A DNA stretch of 64,000 nucleotides, from the NCBI GenBank assembly GCA_037481655.1, contig JBBFLF010000013.1, positions 17,319-81,318 of the forward strand. The letters run 5' to 3'. Below, one piece after another: positions 4,500 through 12,438 of this stretch (position 1 is the first letter of the stretch; each line of letters starts with the position of its first letter). The translations under genes and the position numbers were made by a program. This DNA is from Desulfobaccales bacterium (lineage in GTDB: Bacteria; Desulfobacterota; Desulfobaccia; Desulfobaccales; 0-14-0-80-60-11). The notes beneath the pieces are model-generated. The model saw only the letters and a list, made by a program, of their open reading frames with translations. It was not told where the DNA came from and ran no database searches.

Positions 4500-4745
4500 C
4501 CGGAAACTCCCCGCCTGCCATTTCCAAGGGCCCACGAATCTTGACTTAAATCATATGAAATTAATTCCCCGGATGATTACATAAAGACAAAGTCCAGGGA
4601 AGGGTTAAGGGCCGACGGCCCCTGCCCCACACCCAGTCCCCTCGAAGGAGTTTCGGAGGGGAGCTTGGGGGGAGGGTGGGGTCTCCCCGCTTTTCCGGCC
4701 CTCCCCTCAACCAGGAAAGAAAGGACCCGAAAGGAGGGCCGGCGC

Positions 4746-6023
4746 ATGAAGAATCTAGTGGTTCTGGGGCACGGCACCGGTGGCACCATCATCGCCGCCA
4801 AAATGCGACAGAAGCTGCCGGAGCGGGAGTGGCGCATCACCGTCATCGACCGGGACTGGCAGCACCACTACCAACCGGGATGGCTCTTCATCCCGTTCGG
4901 CATCTACACCAAAGAGGACTGCGTCAAACCCCGGAGCCGCTATGTGCCCCCGGGCGTCAACTTTGTCCTGGACGACATCCTGGGAATTGACCCCGACAAG
5001 CGCCAGGTCCGCACCAAACAGGCCACCTTTCCCTATGATTTCCTGGTCATCGCCACCGGCTGCCGCATTGTGCCGGAGGAGGTGGAGGGCATGGCCGGCG
5101 AGGCCTGGGGAAAGGACATCCACACCTTCTACACCCTGGAGGGTGCCTTGGCCCTCCATGATAAACTCAAATATTTCAGCCAGGGCCGGGTGGTGCTGAA
5201 CATCGCCGAGCTGCCCTTCAAGTGTCCTGTGGCCCCCTTGGAGTTCTGCTTCATGGCGGACTGGTTCTTCGCCGAAAACGGGGTGCGGGACAATATCGAG
5301 ATCGAGCTCACCACGCCGCTGCCCGGGGCCTTCACCAAACCCATGGCCTCGGAGATGCTGGGGCGGCTGGCCCAGGAAAAAAACATCAAGGTCACCCCCA
5401 ACTTTCAGATCTCCGGGGTGGATGCCAAGCGCCGGGTCATCACCAGTTACGACGGCCGGGAAGTGCCCTATGATCTGCTGGTGGCCATCCCGCCCAACTT
5501 CGGGGCCCAGTGCATCATCGACAGCGGGATGGGCGATCCCATGGGCTACATGGACACCGACCATAACACTCTCAAGGCCAAGAATTTTGAGCGCATCTAC
5601 GTTATCGGCGACGCCGCCAATGTCCCCACCTCCAAGGCCGGGGCGGTGGCCCACTACGAGGCGGACGTGGTGGCGGAAAACCTCCGGCGGGAGATCGACG
5701 GCCAGCCCCCCAGGCCGGATTATGACGGCCACGCCACCTGAATGGTGGTAACCGGGTACGAGAAGGGGTCCCTTCTCGATTTCAATTACAAAGTGGAGCC
5801 GCTGCCCGGCAAATTCCCCTTCCCGGGGATCGGGCCCTTTGATCTTCTGGGAGTCAGCTTCGCCAATTACATGGGCAAGATGATGTTCCGCTGGGTGTAC
5901 TACAACCTGATGCTCAAGGGCAGCCACCTGCCCCTGGAACCGCAGTTCATCCTGGCGGGCAAGGTCCGGGGCATTCTCTCCCCTGACATCGAGATCCCGC
6001 TGCGAGCCCGGAGGCGGCCATGA
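4746..6023 (+). CDS. SQR-family flavoprotein with predicted selenocysteine (in-frame TGA at 5739-5741)
   Basis: Sulfide:quinone-oxidoreductase-like FAD protein of 425 residues when the TGA at codon 332 is read as selenocysteine. Residues 1-20 hold the dinucleotide-binding strand (VVLGHGTGG), ATGC with Cys106 follows, Cys160 and Cys168 lie in LPFKCPVAPLEFCF, and the FAD-binding YVIGDAANVP is at 285-294. After the TGA the frame gives the standard SQR C-terminus, including FNYKVEPLPGKFPFPGIGPF and a membrane-associating hydrophobic helix. In Acidithiobacillus SQR, Cys160 and Cys356 are the redox pair; the TGA falls at the Cys356 position (GHA-T-X-MVVTG against NAVCFADMG). A SECIS-like hairpin follows. 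Start at 4746 has AGGAGG upstream. The stop overlaps the DUF1641 gene by four bases. Electron acceptor (quinone or other) is inferred. The alternative is a pseudogene with a nonsense mutation. Confidence 0.85.
5742..5778 (+). promoter_or_regulatory. candidate bacterial SECIS element
   Basis: CGAGAAGG (5759-5766) pairs perfectly with CCTTCTCG (5771-5778) around the tetraloop GGUC. The apical loop begins 25 bases after the TGA at 5739-5741, within the 16-37 base spacing known for bacterial SECIS elements. It has G at loop positions 1 and 2 followed by U, like the GGUC loop of E. coli fdhF. The hairpin lies inside coding sequence, as bacterial SECIS elements do. Confidence 0.82.
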
Positions 6024-6607
6024 ACGGCGAGGCGGAACTGAGCGAACGGCTGGCCCGCATCGAGGAAAAGCTGGACCGGGTCCTGGCCATGGAGGAAAAG
6101 CTCCAGGTCTTCGCCGACTGGTGGGAGAATATCCACGACCTGGGCCGGGACCTCTCCCTGCTCACCCATCCCACCGTGAAGATGCTCACCGAGGAGCTGG
6201 CGGAGGTGGAGACCGGCTTCCAGTCCGAAGACGTCTTTATTCTCTTAAGGCGCCTGCTCCTCAACTTCCGCAACCTGGCCTGGTCCCTGGATCAGCTGGA
6301 GAATTTCATCGACTGGTGGCGGGACCTGGAGCCCATCCTCAAAGTGGCGGTGCCCCGACTCATCGACCAATTGGACCAGCTGGAGGAGGCGGGGCTCTTT
6401 CGGGTGCTGAAAAACGCCACCAGCCTGGAAATGATCCGCTTTTTGGACCGCTTAAGCCGGGTGCCGGTGGAGGTGGATTTGGCCGCCGCTCGGCCGGTGG
6501 GGCCGGTGGGTCTTATGTGGCGTCTCAGGAGCCCCGAGGCCCGGCAGGGGCTGGGCCTGGTGGTGGAACTCACCAAGGCCCTGGGCAAGGTCAAGGGCGA
6601 GGCGTAA
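6020..6607 (+). CDS. DUF1641 family protein
   Basis: A 195-residue soluble helical protein whose C-terminus (LRSPEARQGLGLVVELTKALG) is the signature of DUF1641 proteins. The N-terminus has a short coiled coil (SERLARIEEKLDRVLAMEEKL). Its ATG overlaps the stop of the SQR-like gene (ATGA), so the two are translationally coupled. DUF1641 proteins are commonly found beside SQR-type flavoproteins and formate dehydrogenases, which makes a partner or assembly role for the flavoprotein plausible, but the biochemical function is not established. No signal peptide or membrane span is visible. Confidence 0.8.
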   Translation: MNGEAELSERLARIEEKLDRVLAMEEKLQVFADWWENIHDLGRDLSLLTHPTVKMLTEELAEVETGFQSEDVFILLRRLLLNFRNLAWSLDQLENFIDWWRDLEPILKVAVPRLIDQLDQLEEAGLFRVLKNATSLEMIRFLDRLSRVPVEVDLAAARPVGPVGLMWRLRSPEARQGLGLVVELTKALGKVKGEA

Positions 6608-6647: not shown

Positions 6648-7478
6648 TTACCTGCGCTTTTGCTCCCACAGCCGGGAGAGGGCCGCCAGATGCGCCTTTT
6701 CCTCCTCGGCAATCTCAAAGAAGACCTGACGGGTGGCCTCCTCCCGGCACTTCCGGGCCAGCCGGAGGTAAAGGTCCAGGGCCTGGGTCTCCACCGTCAG
6801 GGCCAGCTCCAGGGCGGCGGCCAGGGTGGTGAGGTAGGGGGCATTGCGGGCGAGAAACTCGGACAGCTGGAAACCGCCTTCCATCACCTCGGCGCCGGCG
6901 GCGGCCAGAGAGGCGGGGTCGGCCGTGGGGGTGATTTCCGCATAACGGTGGCGGAGCCGCTCCTGATGCGCCGCCTCCACCTGCATCATCTGCCGGCAGA
7001 AGGATGCCAATTCCGCATCCTGGGCCGCCTGCGCCACGGCCTCATAAAATGCTTGCAAAGCCCGCTCCAAGCCGTACGCCAGAGTGAGGGCCTCCGCCGG
7101 GCTCTCATCGCCCCGGACGAGCTCCTGGTGCAGCCCCTCGGGACCGGTGGCGGTAAGGCCGTTATAGGCATAGATACCGCCCGCCAGATTATAGACCTCC
7201 CGGAAGCCCAGGCTGCTTAACAGCTGGGCCGCCGCCCGGCTGCGGCCCCCGGCGGCGCAGTAGGCCAGCACCGGCCTTGCAGGGTCCAGCTCCTGCACCC
7301 GCCCCGGAAGCTCCCCCAGGGGCACGAGGGTGGCCCCGGGCAGATGGCGCTCCTCATACTCCCAGGGCTGGCGCACGTCCAGGAGGGTGTAGCTGCCCGC
7401 CGGCTGCTCGAGGAGGAACCGCCGGGCCGCTTCCGGGTCCATCACGGCCACCTCGGCGGATTTCGCCTCAGTCATCAT
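6648..7478 (-). CDS. rhodanese / ferritin-like (rubrerythrin-type) fusion protein
   Basis: Two-domain cytoplasmic protein of 276 residues. Residues 10-110 are a single rhodanese domain with active-site loop CAAGGRSR, which transfers sulfane sulfur. Residues 125-276 are a four-helix ferritin-like domain with repeated ExxH-type iron ligands (VEAAHQER, EIAEEEKAHL), as in sulfur-metabolism-linked rubrerythrin relatives. GGGAGA precedes two adjacent ATGs (7478 and 7475); the second is better spaced. It converges on the SQR-like operon, so a role in handling persulfide is plausible but inferred. The 255 bases upstream contain no gene. Confidence 0.85.
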   Translation of the reverse strand: MMTEAKSAEVAVMDPEAARRFLLEQPAGSYTLLDVRQPWEYEERHLPGATLVPLGELPGRVQELDPARPVLAYCAAGGRSRAAAQLLSSLGFREVYNLAGGIYAYNGLTATGPEGLHQELVRGDESPAEALTLAYGLERALQAFYEAVAQAAQDAELASFCRQMMQVEAAHQERLRHRYAEITPTADPASLAAAGAEVMEGGFQLSEFLARNAPYLTTLAAALELALTVETQALDLYLRLARKCREEATRQVFFEIAEEEKAHLAALSRLWEQKRR

Positions 7479-7733: not shown

Positions 7734-9023
7734 TTAGCCACGGTCCATGTGCAGACGCAGGAAATGGGTGGCGCAGGAGATGCAGGGGTCATAATTGCGC
7801 ACCGTCTGCTCCAGCCGCCAGGTGAGCTCCTCCTGGGGCAGGTCCAGGTGCCGTTCGGCCACCTCCCTGAGGTCCTCCTCCAGGCGCTTCTGGTTCTGGG
7901 AGGTGGGCGGCACGATCTTGGCGGCGGAAATAAGCCCCCCGGCATCCAGCTCGTAACGGTGGTACAGGAGCCCCCGGGGGGCCTCGGTGGCGGCCATGCC
8001 CACTGCCGCCCTCGGGGTCACGGCCACCGCCGGCAGCTCCGGCTCTTCATAGGCCATCACCAGCCGCAGGGCCTCCTCCGCGGCATAGAGCATCTCCACG
8101 GCCCGCACCAGGATGCTCTTGAAGGGGTTCGTCTCCGGGAGGGTGAGGCCCGCCTCCCGGGCCGCCGCCTGGGCCGTGGGGCTGAGCCGGGCGAAGTTGA
8201 GATTGTAGCGGGCCAGCGGCCCCACCAGATACGCCCCCCGGGCTTTCAGCCGGGAGTGCAGAGCGTGGGTGTGGGGGAGCTGCTCCTCCATGAAATGCTC
8301 TTCATAGGCCGTCACCGGAATGTCCAAGCCCCGACTGGAGGCCACCCGGCCCTCGTTCATGGGGTATTCCCCGGGGTGGGAGAGGGCGACGAACTCATAG
8401 TCCGGGGCGAAATCCGGAAACTCGAAGCCCGCCACCCAGCGCAGGGCGGCCTGGGCGGCCTCCATGGCCTGCTTGAGGTCCTCGGCCAAGGGCAGCAGCT
8501 CCTCCCGGCGGGGCGCCCGGTAAAAGCCGCCTACCCGCACATTCACCGGGTGGGTCTCCCGGCCGCTCAGGCGGCTCACCACCACGTTCCCCACCCGTTT
8601 GAGGAGCTGCCCCAGCCGGAGTTTGTCCGGCTGCTGCCGGGCCAGGGCCAGGGCGTCAGGCAGCCCCAGGAAATCCGGGGCGTGGAGGAAAAAGACATGC
8701 AGGGCATGGGAGGCCAGCCACTCACCGCAATAGAGCAGACGCCGGAGCTCCCGTACGGGCCGGGGCACCTCCACCCCTAGGGCGGCCTCCAGGGCGTGCA
8801 CCGCGCTCATCTGGTAGGCCACCGGGCAAATGCCGCAGATGCGGGCGGTGAGATCCGGGGCCTCCCTAAAGTCCCGACCCCGAAGAAAAGCCTCGAAAAA
8901 CCGGGGCGGCTCAAAGATAGCAAACTCCGCCACCATCACCCGGCCGTCTCTGACCTTCAGAACCAGCCGGGCCTCCCCCTCCACCCGGGCAAGGTAATCA
9001 ACCTGGACGCGGCGGCTCTTCAT
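7734..9023 (-). CDS. hyhL: group 3b [NiFe] hydrogenase (sulfhydrogenase) large subunit
   Basis: Catalytic subunit of the cytoplasmic NAD(P)-linked bidirectional hydrogenase, also able to reduce polysulfide in Pyrococcus. The 429-residue product carries the N-terminal L1 motif RICGICPVAYQ and the C-terminal L2 motif DPCISCATH, which together supply the four nickel-binding cysteines; all are cysteine, so this is not a NiFeSe enzyme. A nine-residue tail follows the last histidine and would be removed by a maturation protease. I chose the ATG at 9023; the gene then overlaps hyhS by 26 bases. Last gene of the hyhB-cNMP-hyhG-hyhS-hyhL set. No maturation genes are in the window. Confidence 0.92.
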   Translation of the reverse strand: MKSRRVQVDYLARVEGEARLVLKVRDGRVMVAEFAIFEPPRFFEAFLRGRDFREAPDLTARICGICPVAYQMSAVHALEAALGVEVPRPVRELRRLLYCGEWLASHALHVFFLHAPDFLGLPDALALARQQPDKLRLGQLLKRVGNVVVSRLSGRETHPVNVRVGGFYRAPRREELLPLAEDLKQAMEAAQAALRWVAGFEFPDFAPDYEFVALSHPGEYPMNEGRVASSRGLDIPVTAYEEHFMEEQLPHTHALHSRLKARGAYLVGPLARYNLNFARLSPTAQAAAREAGLTLPETNPFKSILVRAVEMLYAAEEALRLVMAYEEPELPAVAVTPRAAVGMAATEAPRGLLYHRYELDAGGLISAAKIVPPTSQNQKRLEEDLREVAERHLDLPQEELTWRLEQTVRNYDPCISCATHFLRLHMDRG

Positions 9024-9792
9024 GGGCCTCGCTCTCCAGCCGGAAGGCCGGCGCATTGGCGTAAAACAAACGGAAAGCCCGCACCAGCTCCGCTTCCTTG
9101 GCCCCCAGGCGCTCCGTGAACCACCGGGCCAAGGACGAGGTCTTGGGGGTCTCCTTGGGGCCGAAGCAGCCGTAGCAGGGGCGGTGCCAGCCCGGGCACA
9201 GGGCGCCGCAGCCTGCCTGGGTCACGGGCCCGAGACACGGTAGGCCCCGGGAGACCAGCACGCAGATGTGCCCGGCCCGCTTGCACTCCAGGCAGACGCT
9301 GGCCGGGGTCCGGGGCGGAGGGGCCCCGTGCAGGCAGGCAGCCACCGCGGCCACCACCTGGGCCCGATTGGGCGGGCAGCCTTGCAGCTCCAGATCCACC
9401 GGCACATGCTGGGAGATGGGGGTGGATTCCGCCAGCACCGGGATGAGCTCCGGCCGCTCGTAGACCAGCCGGGCGTAATCCTCCACCGCGGTGAAATTGC
9501 GCAGTGCCTGGATGCCCCCGGAGGTGGCGCAGGTGCCGAAGGCAATGAGCACCTTGGAGAGGCGCCGCACCCTTTGCACCTGCTCCAGGTGTTCCGGCAG
9601 GCTCACCGAGCCCTCCACCAGGGAGATGTCGTAGGGTCCAGGAACTCGGCGGCGGGAGGCCTCGGGGAAATAGGCGATCTCCACGCATTCCGCCAGCTCC
9701 AGGAGCTCGTCCTCCAGATAGAGCAGCGAGAGCTGGCAGCCGTCACAGGAGGTGAATTTCCACACCGCCAGCTTGGGTTTTTTCTTGGGCAT
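8998..9792 (-). CDS. hyhS: group 3b [NiFe] hydrogenase small subunit
   Basis: Electron-transfer subunit with three iron-sulfur clusters that links the NiFe site in HyhL to the diaphorase subunits. Of 264 residues; the proximal-cluster cysteines are in TSCDGCQ, GTCATSGG and GCPPN, and the medial/distal cluster cysteines lie in CLECKRAGHIC, CLGPVTQAGCGALCP and CYGCFGP. No Tat signal is present, as expected for a cytoplasmic group 3 enzyme. The ATG at 9792 (MPKKKPKLAVWKF) is chosen because upstream in-frame sequence derives from a GC-rich intergenic hairpin. Confidence 0.92.
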   Translation of the reverse strand: MPKKKPKLAVWKFTSCDGCQLSLLYLEDELLELAECVEIAYFPEASRRRVPGPYDISLVEGSVSLPEHLEQVQRVRRLSKVLIAFGTCATSGGIQALRNFTAVEDYARLVYERPELIPVLAESTPISQHVPVDLELQGCPPNRAQVVAAVAACLHGAPPPRTPASVCLECKRAGHICVLVSRGLPCLGPVTQAGCGALCPGWHRPCYGCFGPKETPKTSSLARWFTERLGAKEAELVRAFRLFYANAPAFRLESEAHEEPPRPG

Positions 9793-9849
9793 GGCAGCTT
9801 CTTCCCGGCGGCCTGCCAGGTGGCCACCGGTCAACTCATTTAAGGGGTT

Positions 9850-9892
9850 GGGAGAGGGGGCAGGGGTCGGCGATCCCTGGCCCCCTCTCCCC
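9850..9892. repeat. GC-rich intergenic hairpin, dispersed family B
   Basis: GGGAGAGGGGGC-AGGGG (9850-9866) pairs with CCCTGGCCCCCTCTCCCC (9875-9892) with one bulge. The same sequence occurs in longer form at 17084-17128 and in related form at 55842-55888. It lies between hyhG and hyhS within the operon. Confidence 0.7.
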
Positions 9893-9917
9893 AAAACTCT
9901 CTTTCAGATCATACAGA

Positions 9918-10772
9918 TCATAACTCCCGGAGCTGGAGCCATTTCTTTACGCGGGCGTAGGAGAAGACCGGGCCGTCCTTGCAGACAAAGACCGGCCCCA
10001 GCTGGCAATGGCCGCACAGCCCCAGGCCGCACTGCATGTTGCGCTCCAAAGAGACAAAAATGTGCTCTTCCGGCACCCCCCGGGCCAGGAGCTCCGCCAC
10101 CGTGAAGCGCATCATCACGCCCGGGCCGCACACCAGGGCGCTGGTGTAGGGCGGGTCGAAGCGGGCATGGGAGATGAGGGTGGTGACCACCCCCACCGGG
10201 CCCCGCCACTCCGGGCCGGCGGCATCCACGGTGACATGCACCCGAAGGTCGAAGCGCCCCCGCCAGCGGGAAAGCTCCTCCGGGTAAAGCAGATCCTGGG
10301 GACTGCGGCTGCCGTAGATGATCTCCACCGCGCCGAACTCCAGGCGTCGGGCCAGCACCCCATACACGGCGGGCCTCAGAGGTGCCAGCCCCAGGCCGCC
10401 GGCGATGATGAGGAGGTCCCGCCCTGCCTGCTCCGCCACCGGCCAGGCAGTGCCGAAAGGGCCCCTGACCCCCAGTGTCTCCCCGGGCTTCAGGCGACAC
10501 AGGGCCCGGGTCACCGGCCCCACCGCCCGGATGGTGTGGATCAGGCGCCGGGGCTCTCCGGGGTCGCCGCTGATGGAGATGGGCACCTCCCCCGCTCCCG
10601 GGACACTCAGCATGTTGAACTGCCCCGGCGCAAAGGCAAAGCCCCTTTCCCCGGGATCCAGGGTGAGGGTGACGGTATCCGCCGTCTCCCGGCGCCGCTG
10701 CAATACCATCAGGAGAGCCGGGACCATGGGGTCGGTCGCTTTCCGGGGCGGTGGGCGGTGCTCAGAGGCCAT
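9918..10772 (-). CDS. hyhG: group 3b hydrogenase FAD/NAD(P)-binding gamma subunit
   Basis: Flavoprotein that passes electrons between NAD(P) and the hydrogenase iron-sulfur chain (sulfhydrogenase gamma, AsrB-like). The 284-residue product has the ferredoxin-reductase fold: flavin-binding region around PGQFNMLSVP, NAD-binding GGLGLAPLRP, a CGPGVMM motif, and a C-terminal [2Fe-2S] site with four cysteines in ERNMQCGLGLCGHCQ and FVCKDG. Its start overlaps the stop of the cNMP-binding gene by 11 bases, so the genes are coupled. Confidence 0.9.
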   Translation of the reverse strand: MASEHRPPPRKATDPMVPALLMVLQRRRETADTVTLTLDPGERGFAFAPGQFNMLSVPGAGEVPISISGDPGEPRRLIHTIRAVGPVTRALCRLKPGETLGVRGPFGTAWPVAEQAGRDLLIIAGGLGLAPLRPAVYGVLARRLEFGAVEIIYGSRSPQDLLYPEELSRWRGRFDLRVHVTVDAAGPEWRGPVGVVTTLISHARFDPPYTSALVCGPGVMMRFTVAELLARGVPEEHIFVSLERNMQCGLGLCGHCQLGPVFVCKDGPVFSYARVKKWLQLREL

Positions 10773-11220
10773 GGAGGAGATTCACCACCTGGCGCTTCAT
10801 GGAGGCAAAGTGCCGGGCCATGCCCTGGGTGAAGCGCTTGAGAAGCTGATACCCCAGCAGGGGGTCCTCGTCCAGAAGCCGGTTGAGGCACTCCAGGGGC
10901 AGGACAATGGCCCGGGTCAGCTCCAGAGCCCGGGCGTCCACCACCCACAGGGCATGGGGCTCCAGCCCCAGCCAGCCCAGGAAATCCCCGGCCTCCCGGG
11001 TCTGGATGAGGAGGGGGCCCCGCCGGGCGGTGAAGATCTCCAGGGCCACCCGGCCGCTCCGGATCAGGAAAAATTCCTGGATTTCCTCGCCCTCCCGCAC
11101 CAGGAACTCGTCCGCGGCGAATTGCCGTTCCACCGCGCAGGCGGCCAGCCGGGATACTTGTCCCGGCGCCAGCTCGCGGCAGAAGGGGTGGGCACTCACC
11201 AGGGGCTCCAGCCTTGCCAT
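10762..11220 (-). CDS. cyclic-nucleotide-binding domain protein without DNA-binding domain
   Basis: A 152-residue protein consisting almost entirely of one Crp/Fnr-type cNMP-binding jelly roll ([24 protein letters not shown], then [10 protein letters not shown]). Crp/Fnr regulators are about 210-230 residues with a C-terminal helix-turn-helix; here the protein stops after the dimerisation helix, so it is not a classical transcription factor. Start at 11220 has AGGGAG eight bases upstream, four bases after the hyhB stop. Embedded in the hydrogenase operon, it may act as an allosteric or redox-sensing subunit of the hydrogenase; that is inference. Confidence 0.85.
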
Positions 11221-11224
11221 GGCG

Positions 11225-12364
11225 TTACTCCCTCTTTGCCGGCGGCGTCTCCGGCCTTCGCAAAGCCGCCACTTCAGCGGTGAGGTCAATCCCCACCGGG
11301 CACCAGGTGATGCAGCGGCCGCAGCCCACGCACCCGAGGCAGCTGAACTGGTCCTGCCAGGTGGCCAGCTTGTGGGTCAGCCACTGGCGGTAGCGGGCCC
11401 GGGGGGTGGCCCTGACACTGCCGCCGTGGATGTAAGAATGGGCCACGGTGAAGCAGACATCCTGCACCCGCCGGCGGCTGGCCTGATCTCCCCTCAAGTT
11501 GATGCTGTCCTCCAGGTGGTGACAGAAACAGGTGGGGCAGACCATGGCGCAGTTGCCGCAGGTGAGGCAGCGGGCCGCCACCTCGGCCCAGTGCCGGTGC
11601 TCGTAATTTTCGTACAGGTGCTCTTGGAGACCCGCCACCGTTAGCTGCCGGCCCATACGGCCGGCCGCGGCCGCCAGCGCCTGGGCGGCGGCCTCCGCTT
11701 CCCCCCTGGTGGCCTCCCGGTGCGGCACTTTCTCCATGAGGCGGCGGCCCGCGGCAGTGCCCATCTCCACCAAGAACCAGTGGCCCTCATGGGTGAACAT
11801 TTCCGTCAGGGCCAGATCAAAGCCCCCCTGGGCCCGGGGCCCGGTCCCCATGGAGGCGCAGAAGCAGGTGCCCCCGGGTCGGGTGCAGTTCACCGCCACC
11901 ACAAAGGCGGCCTCCCGGCGGGCCTGATAGTATGGCTCCACATAAGGCCCCTTCAGGAAGATGCGGTCCAGGACCCCCAGGGCCGCCAGGTCGCAGGGGC
12001 GCACGCCGATGAGGGCCACCGGCGGCAGGTCCTCTGAGGGGAGGGCGATCTCCCAGCCGCCGGCAGTCCGGGTTGCCTCCCACATAAGCCGGCTCGACGG
12101 GAAGAAGACCGGCTTCCAGGAATGCTGCCCCACCGGATAGCCGAAAAGCTCCGCATCCCCCCGAAAGACCAGGCGGAAGGTCCCCGCCTCCTGCTCCATG
12201 CCCAGGCCCCGGGGCAGGTCCGCCGCGCCGGAGATCTCCCGGTGCCCGAAATCGCCCTGAACCACAGACGGCCCCAGGAGGGCATAGCCTTGGCGCCGCA
12301 GCTCCGCCAGCAGGGCCGCGAAACCTTCAGGAGTGAGGGTCAGGGCAGGGAAAGGGCCGCTCAT
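11225..12364 (-). CDS. hyhB: group 3b hydrogenase 4Fe-4S beta subunit
   Basis: Iron-sulfur subunit of the sulfhydrogenase diaphorase half, related to anaerobic sulfite reductase subunit A. The 379-residue product ends in two [4Fe-4S] motifs ([16 protein letters not shown] and [15 protein letters not shown]), preceded by the family's [10 protein letters not shown] and [11 protein letters not shown] segments. It is the first gene of the hydrogenase operon. The ATG at 12364 gives a normal N-terminus ([11 protein letters not shown]); the frame is open to a TTG at 12427 and no strong Shine-Dalgarno settles the choice. Confidence 0.88.
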
Positions 12365-12422
12365 TAACAGATGTGGGTCGACTTTGGATTTTCCCTGGAT
12401 TGTGGCATGGGCGGCCGGGAAG

Positions 12423-12438
12423 TGCAAGGGGAACGCCG
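12423..12438 (-). promoter_or_regulatory. weak sigma-54-like site upstream of the hydrogenase operon
   Basis: On the minus strand CGGCGT-TCCCC-TTGCA keeps the invariant GG and GC dinucleotides ten bases apart but has only three of six -24 bases. It lies about 60 bases before hyhB. Kept as a low-confidence candidate because two other sites in the window are much closer to consensus. Confidence 0.25.

Follow-up and report, generated by a model that had tools for sequence, protein, structure and literature searches.

The question raised by this locus is how an in-frame TGA codon is read. The codon interrupts a gene of the type III sulfide:quinone oxidoreductase (SQR) family in a stretch of 64,000 nucleotides (hereafter the window) from contig JBBFLF010000013.1 of a Desulfobaccales bacterium (assembly GCA_037481655.1), and an earlier note on the same DNA had taken it for a selenocysteine (Sec) codon. 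Our results make it highly probable, as the best overall explanation, that this is a type III SQR family gene whose UGA is read as Sec at the likely catalytic position. Taken separately, Sec at residue 332, predicted by comparison of genes, is the best reading of the UGA and one we hold to be nearly certain, and SQR-type catalysis, given Sec at this residue, is predicted as quite probable. These grades, like those given below for a link to the DUF1641 protein encoded next to the gene, for two gains of Sec and for its reversion, are a matter of judgement.

The TGA codon and its column

A single frame of 425 residues, a count that includes the internal TGA codon, runs from the ATG at 4746 to the stop at 6021-6023, and its one internal stop is the TGA at 5739-5741, residue 332, which confirms the full-length SQR-like frame split by this codon that the earlier note had described. 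The 93-residue piece 3' of the TGA, scored alone against the NF049943 model, reached 106.7 bits and bears out the claim that an SQR C-terminus follows in the same frame. The whole protein scored 664.7 bits (cut-off 525), which makes it a member of that family, and it carries the motif HxxU as H329-A-T-U332. With the protein as query one SQR copy was found in the genome (G000), to which the family model added one weak match elsewhere, of 30.9 bits and covering the N-terminal part only.

The same genome (2.87 Mb in 50 contigs, listed as 100% complete) was checked for the Sec machinery, as had been suggested, and all of SelA (617.1 bits), SelB (350.8 bits) and SelD (365.2 bits) scored above cut-off, together with a tRNA-Sec of 73.8 bits (gathering 47), which ARAGORN also calls as tRNA-SeC with anticodon tca. 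The gene for SelD (L044, contig C16) carries one in-frame TGA; SelD is probably itself a selenoprotein, and this TGA is consistent with Sec use in the genome.

Relatives were collected by a genome contig scan (26 loci) and from 29 genomes of the class, 395 of the phylum (31 with a match) and 291 of the order of locus L037 (61 with a match). Column counts refer to fetched genes, the class, phylum and order scans having supplied loci for part of their matches, and after removal of duplicates 76 distinct genes, the window's own among them, covered the column of residue 332, which loci L040 and L068 lack. The column holds Cys in 50 genes and TGA in 26, with no other residue in any of the 76, and the conserved partner proposed for it, Cys160, is Cys in all 75 genes that reach the position and invariant in a 30-sequence alignment (A1). 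Internal-stop counts were rejected as Sec counts for genome G108, where the column of locus L090 reads TGT.

Residues 160 and 332 align with chain positions 161 and 339 of the human SQOR construct, which we infer to be Cys201 and Cys379 by a numbering offset of 40, in line with the residue numbers of the human structure entry itself. Cys201 and Cys379 are described as the bridged pair of human SQOR (PMC11039317), and the TGA aligns with the second active-site cysteine of that enzyme. The profile match of Acidithiobacillus ferrooxidans SQR (3kpk) ends at profile position 334 and chain position 359, which would put the column at position 356 if the last profile positions are ungapped, in agreement with the placement of the TGA by the earlier note at the third catalytic cysteine, Cys356. 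A sequencing or assembly error of TGC or TGT is extremely improbable: the assembly is in 50 contigs and TGA is one base away from either codon, but the codon is again TGA in 26 distinct genes spread over many assemblies, including both other genomes of the genus (G008 and G009), and a base-calling error is therefore excluded in practice. The conditions named in the earlier note as refuting its reading were checked as far as could be done, and the outcome favoured that reading.

The predicted SECIS hairpins

The TGA genes form a first clade of 18, to which the window gene belongs, and a second clade of 8 found outside Desulfobaccia (L036-L038 and L110-L114). The predicted selenocysteine insertion sequence (SECIS) of the first clade is the hairpin CGAGAAGG-GGTC-CCTTCTCG at 5759-5778, which has an 8-bp stem and spans six whole codons (+7 to +12) plus one base on each side. 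The stem is separated from the TGA by 17 nt and the loop by 25 nt. The hairpin sequence is identical in 18/18 TGA genes of the clade. The energy is -11.5 kcal/mol, or -12.6 kcal/mol with two flanking bases on each side, and the best comparable hairpin among those shown for ordinary Cys genes reaches -6.3 kcal/mol, many having none. The published SECIS model (PMC13188914) asks for a loop of 3-9 nt, a stem of 4-16 bp, G at loop positions 1 and 2, a loop at 16-37 nt from the UGA and a minimum free energy of at most -7.5; the window hairpin, with a loop of 4, a stem of 8, GG, 25 nt and -11.5 kcal/mol, lies within these bounds, and the perfect 8-bp hairpin with a GGUC loop at a suitable distance that had been claimed for it was thus recovered. 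When up to 3 mismatches were allowed, a search of the window hit a single site, which shows up on both strands since the hairpin is close to self-complementary, and shuffles gave no hit.

Silent-site conservation was used because the fold energy of the 60 nt from the TGA is by itself not significant. Among the 17 full-length TGA genes tested, silent variation at codons +6 to +12 is zero, whereas the other amino-acid-invariant codons of these genes have a mean of 0.38 with 6.8% fixed, the longest fixed run outside the hairpin stretch being 2 codons. The stretch +6 to +13, which contains two codons only partly inside the hairpin, has a mean of 0.048, a value as low in 0/20,000 random draws, codon +13 itself varying (0.38). 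In 8 Cys paralogues, by comparison, this stretch is as variable as the remainder of the gene (0.34 vs 0.35). The 24-nt hairpin stretch also folds better than shuffles (z -2.73, 2/200 as good). The strong SECIS evidence is comparative and not energetic, the energy evidence alone being modest.

In the second clade the hairpin is a different one, RAGCCAT-GGT-ATGGCTT; 18 nt separate its loop from the TGA, and taken alone it has an energy of -6.5 to -6.9 kcal/mol. Several points weigh against the explanation favoured here. These second-clade hairpins miss the published -7.5 and hardly beat the best chance hairpin of the Cys genes (-6.3). The 60 nt from the window TGA fold no better than shuffles (z -0.64, 49/200 as good), as is also the case for the 60 nt of L037 in the second clade (z 0.07), and this fold energy alone was rejected as proof of a SECIS. 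A search of 5600-6100 against Rfam gave no family for the hairpin, only a below-threshold match to a CRISPR repeat. A match to NF049943 was likewise rejected as proof of Sec, since plain Cys members pass its cut-off of 525 (L035 with 678.2 bits, L041 with 646.3, L026 with 661.8 and L027 with 660.5). Finally, three parts of the explanation are inferred: the direction of the reaction in the cell, the acceptor and what the DUF1641 protein does.

If the TGA were a real stop, the locus would be a pseudogene or a split gene whose second half restarts at the ATG at 5742-5744, which directly adjoins the TGA. Among the database matches listed, 35/120 homologues do end exactly at residue 331, before the UGA (e.g. 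P0010 and P0050), the other 85 having Cys. However, the codon after the TGA is Met in 10/18 genes of the window's clade, Leu or Ile in 8/18, and Phe in 8/8 genes of the second TGA clade. Conservation continues beyond the TGA, there are no other internal stops among 50 distinct genes, and the frozen hairpin further disfavours a genuine stop, which we regard as very improbable.

Possible origins of Sec and the nested Cys genes

Reading the UGA as Sec raises the question of how often it was gained. The residues under the hairpins differ from those of the Cys genes in a clade-specific manner. Position 341 is Ala in 46/46 ordinary Cys genes and in 8/8 genes of the second clade, and Gly in 18/18 of the first; positions 337-340 are Ser-His-Gly-Met in 8/8 second-clade genes, where the ordinary Cys genes have Gly (46/46), Tyr, Phe or His (28, 13 and 5), mostly Glu (38) and mostly Lys (43). 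From these differences it is likely that each hairpin imposed residues on the protein.

The free tree places four Cys genes (L023, L026, L027 and L058) within the first TGA clade, and they stay there when the site and the 14 residues that follow are masked (nesting support 97/91 and 99/93); an intermediate branch has 89/50 and the four as one group only 88/32. All four keep Gly341. In L026, from Desulforhabdus sp. TSK, 19/20 hairpin bases are kept and the 8-bp stem persists through a G-T pair, the probability of its seven codons by chance, given the protein, being ~2e-4 with its own codon use and 6e-5 with pooled use; a hairpin of the first-clade type is absent in L023, L027 and L058. A return to Cys in SelB-carrying hosts is favoured because SelB scored above cut-off in the genomes of all four (G313, G024, G025 and G001, the last with a partial copy of 276.4 bits). 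Altogether SelB passed in 12/13 genomes checked, the exception being G408, the genome of TGA locus L038. Two observations speak against a reversion. Tyr333, present in all four nested genes, fits a Cys ancestor better: a single base separates it from the Phe of the ordinary Cys genes, and its distance to the Met, Leu or Ile of the TGA clade is greater. In addition, approximately unbiased (AU) tests did not reject a first TGA clade from which the four nested Cys rows are excluded (p 0.189 and 0.329). A reversion from Sec to Cys in the nested genes is the course we favour, without holding it to be proven.

A single Sec origin that unites every TGA row and leaves out the nested Cys rows was rejected (AU p 2.6e-5), but a single origin that includes the four nested rows was not (AU p 0.26, and 0.0875 with 74 rows). 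Two separate gains of Sec are favoured as well, and are not proven since the latter arrangement survives the AU tests. The partial L069 was omitted from all trees, L106 and L107 from those giving AU p 2.6e-5, 0.189 and 0.26, and only L107 (plus L069) from the support tree (97/91) and the tests with p 0.0875 and 0.329.

TGA and Cys copies of the SQR gene occur together in 7/19 genomes of the class with an above-cut-off match (G006, G012, G013, G014, G016, G018 and G019) and in 4/7 TGA-bearing genomes of the second order (G406, G634, G657 and G669); in the three genomes of the window's genus the TGA copy alone passes the cut-off. Such pairs resemble known selenium-switched isoenzymes. We give about even chances to the full history, in which Sec came into the sulfur-carrying position of type III SQR on two occasions, once in Desulfobaccia and once in a Desulfobacterales lineage, each gain brought a separate hairpin at a different distance that overwrote otherwise invariant or near-invariant residues, one branch of the first clade reverted, one member of it keeps a fossil hairpin, and Sec and Cys isoenzymes coexist in several genomes. 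If true, coexisting Sec and Cys isoenzymes would be a natural two-way experiment on selenium in sulfide oxidation. With matched Sec and Cys versions, sometimes in one genome, the benefit of selenium in persulfide chemistry becomes testable.

The predicted DUF1641 partner, proposed mechanism and known systems

The features of the locus are collected in the table below. The DUF1641 protein scored 35.3 bits against PF07849 (cut-off 21), its ATG overlapping the SQR stop as ATGA (6020-6023), and the frame of a homologue starts within 400 nt 3' of the SQR stop in 73/76 loci; the misses are L039, with 117 nt left on the locus, and L106 and L107, the two most distant relatives. Locus L036 has a second, weaker DUF1641 match (E 4e-10) about 858 nt past the SQR stop, after the first. 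A quinone-linking role of the protein is likely because in Bacillus a formate dehydrogenase found to copurify with menaquinone needs the DUF1641 protein ForE in order to reduce menadione (PMC8808070), and by this analogy we consider it somewhat more probable than not that the DUF1641 protein would be the menaquinone link of the SQR. With this neighbour, a way from type III SQR to menaquinone can be proposed and tested.

Features of the locus, with positions in the window
Feature	Position	Strand	Remarks
Shine-Dalgarno-like AAGGAGGG	4731..4738	+	7 nt 5' of the ATG; read directly from the sequence
Type III sulfide:quinone oxidoreductase family gene	4746..6023	+	425 residues, one internal TGA, stop TGA 6021-6023
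Cys160 codon, predicted partner of residue 332	5223..5225	+	human SQOR Cys201 by alignment; Cys in 75/75 covering genes
In-frame TGA, predicted Sec332	5739..5741	+	human SQOR Cys379 by alignment; 26 TGA and 50 Cys in 76 genes
Predicted bacterial SECIS hairpin	5759..5778	+	identical in 18/18 same-clade TGA genes; frozen codons
DUF1641 gene, predicted partner subunit	6020..6607	+	PF07849 match; ATG overlaps SQR stop
Rhodanese domain fused to rubrerythrin-like domain	6651-7478	-	Pfam; convergent with the SQR-DUF1641 pair
Sulfhydrogenase-like set (alpha, delta, gamma, beta subunits)	7734-12427	-	NCBIfam scores well below curated cut-offs

Further downstream, the rhodanese-rubrerythrin gene was seen near the pair only in L017, L018 and L048, all of the window's genus, among 50 distinct loci, many of which reach no more than about 1.5 kb downstream. 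The sulfhydrogenase-like set is a diverged group near the NAD(P)-linked sulfhydrogenases.

In the mechanism that we propose, SelB with Sec-tRNA would bind the hairpin and insert Sec332, which with Cys160 would form the active-site pair beside flavin adenine dinucleotide (FAD), like Cys379 and Cys201 of human SQOR. In the scheme put forward for human SQOR, the sulfane sulfur sits on the residue that aligns with Sec332 and passes from it to the acceptor (PMC11039317); by the same scheme, the sulfur bridge between Cys160 and Sec332 would here be opened by sulfide. Sec332 would then carry the sulfane sulfur (Se-SH) to its acceptor, Cys160 would pass two electrons to FAD, and the DUF1641 protein would probably let the reduced flavoprotein reach menaquinone, like ForE (PMC8808070). 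The fold and the alignment to human SQOR are the basis on which sulfide:quinone activity with FAD is predicted. Selenolates are stronger nucleophiles than thiolates and leave more readily, and the likely gain from Sec is for this reason a faster or more reversible transfer of sulfane sulfur in a dsrA-bearing organism.

The genome does encode dsrA (549 bits, cut-off 392.85), and together with the sulfhydrogenase-like cluster next to the SQR-DUF1641 region this fits a Sec flavoprotein that works mainly in reverse, reducing polysulfide with quinol or NAD(P)H, or that acts as a reductase of the persulfide or CoA-disulfide type, rather than as a sulfide oxidase; the fold family includes type II NADH dehydrogenases as well. 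We consider this unlikely, and keep a sulfide-oxidizing SQR as the preferred reading.

The closest known system is NF049943 (SQR_III_seleno), to which the window protein belongs by its score, and which is listed in a review table as 'Type III sulfide quinone reductase, selenoprotein subtype' with the motif HxxU (PMC13188914). The model does not separate Sec and Cys forms, and automatic naming may call Cys enzymes selenoproteins because it passes Cys genes; counts of full-length SQR in such organisms may also be off, since database entries for these proteins often stop at residue 331. In the literature text searched, figures excluded, we found no mention of two types of hairpin, or of a DUF1641 partner, in connection with this family, and a search by title or abstract opening found no biochemistry of a Sec-SQR. 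Remnant SECIS-like structures in Cys genes have been described before in other families (PMC1794560), so hairpin remnants in Cys genes are not new as a phenomenon.

In the deep-Sep paper two Desulfosediminicola species are listed with an NAD(P)/FAD-dependent oxidoreductase that has both TGA and Cys homologues (PMC12013277); this predicted selenoprotein, which comes from another class, Desulfobulbia, is filed under NF049943 by the review, citing that paper (PMC13188914). The type III SQR of cable bacteria belongs to the same SQR class, but is a Cys form with the catalytic pair Cys159 and Cys339, and the word selenocysteine is absent from the main text of its paper (PMC13047784). Human SQOR (PDB 6oi5 and 8dhk), with 25% identity over the structural alignment, has Cys where the window protein is predicted to have Sec. 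The Sec-SQR kind is already catalogued, since NF049943, together with PMC13188914 and PMC12013277, lists the family, and the window adds to it a new member plus evolutionary detail.
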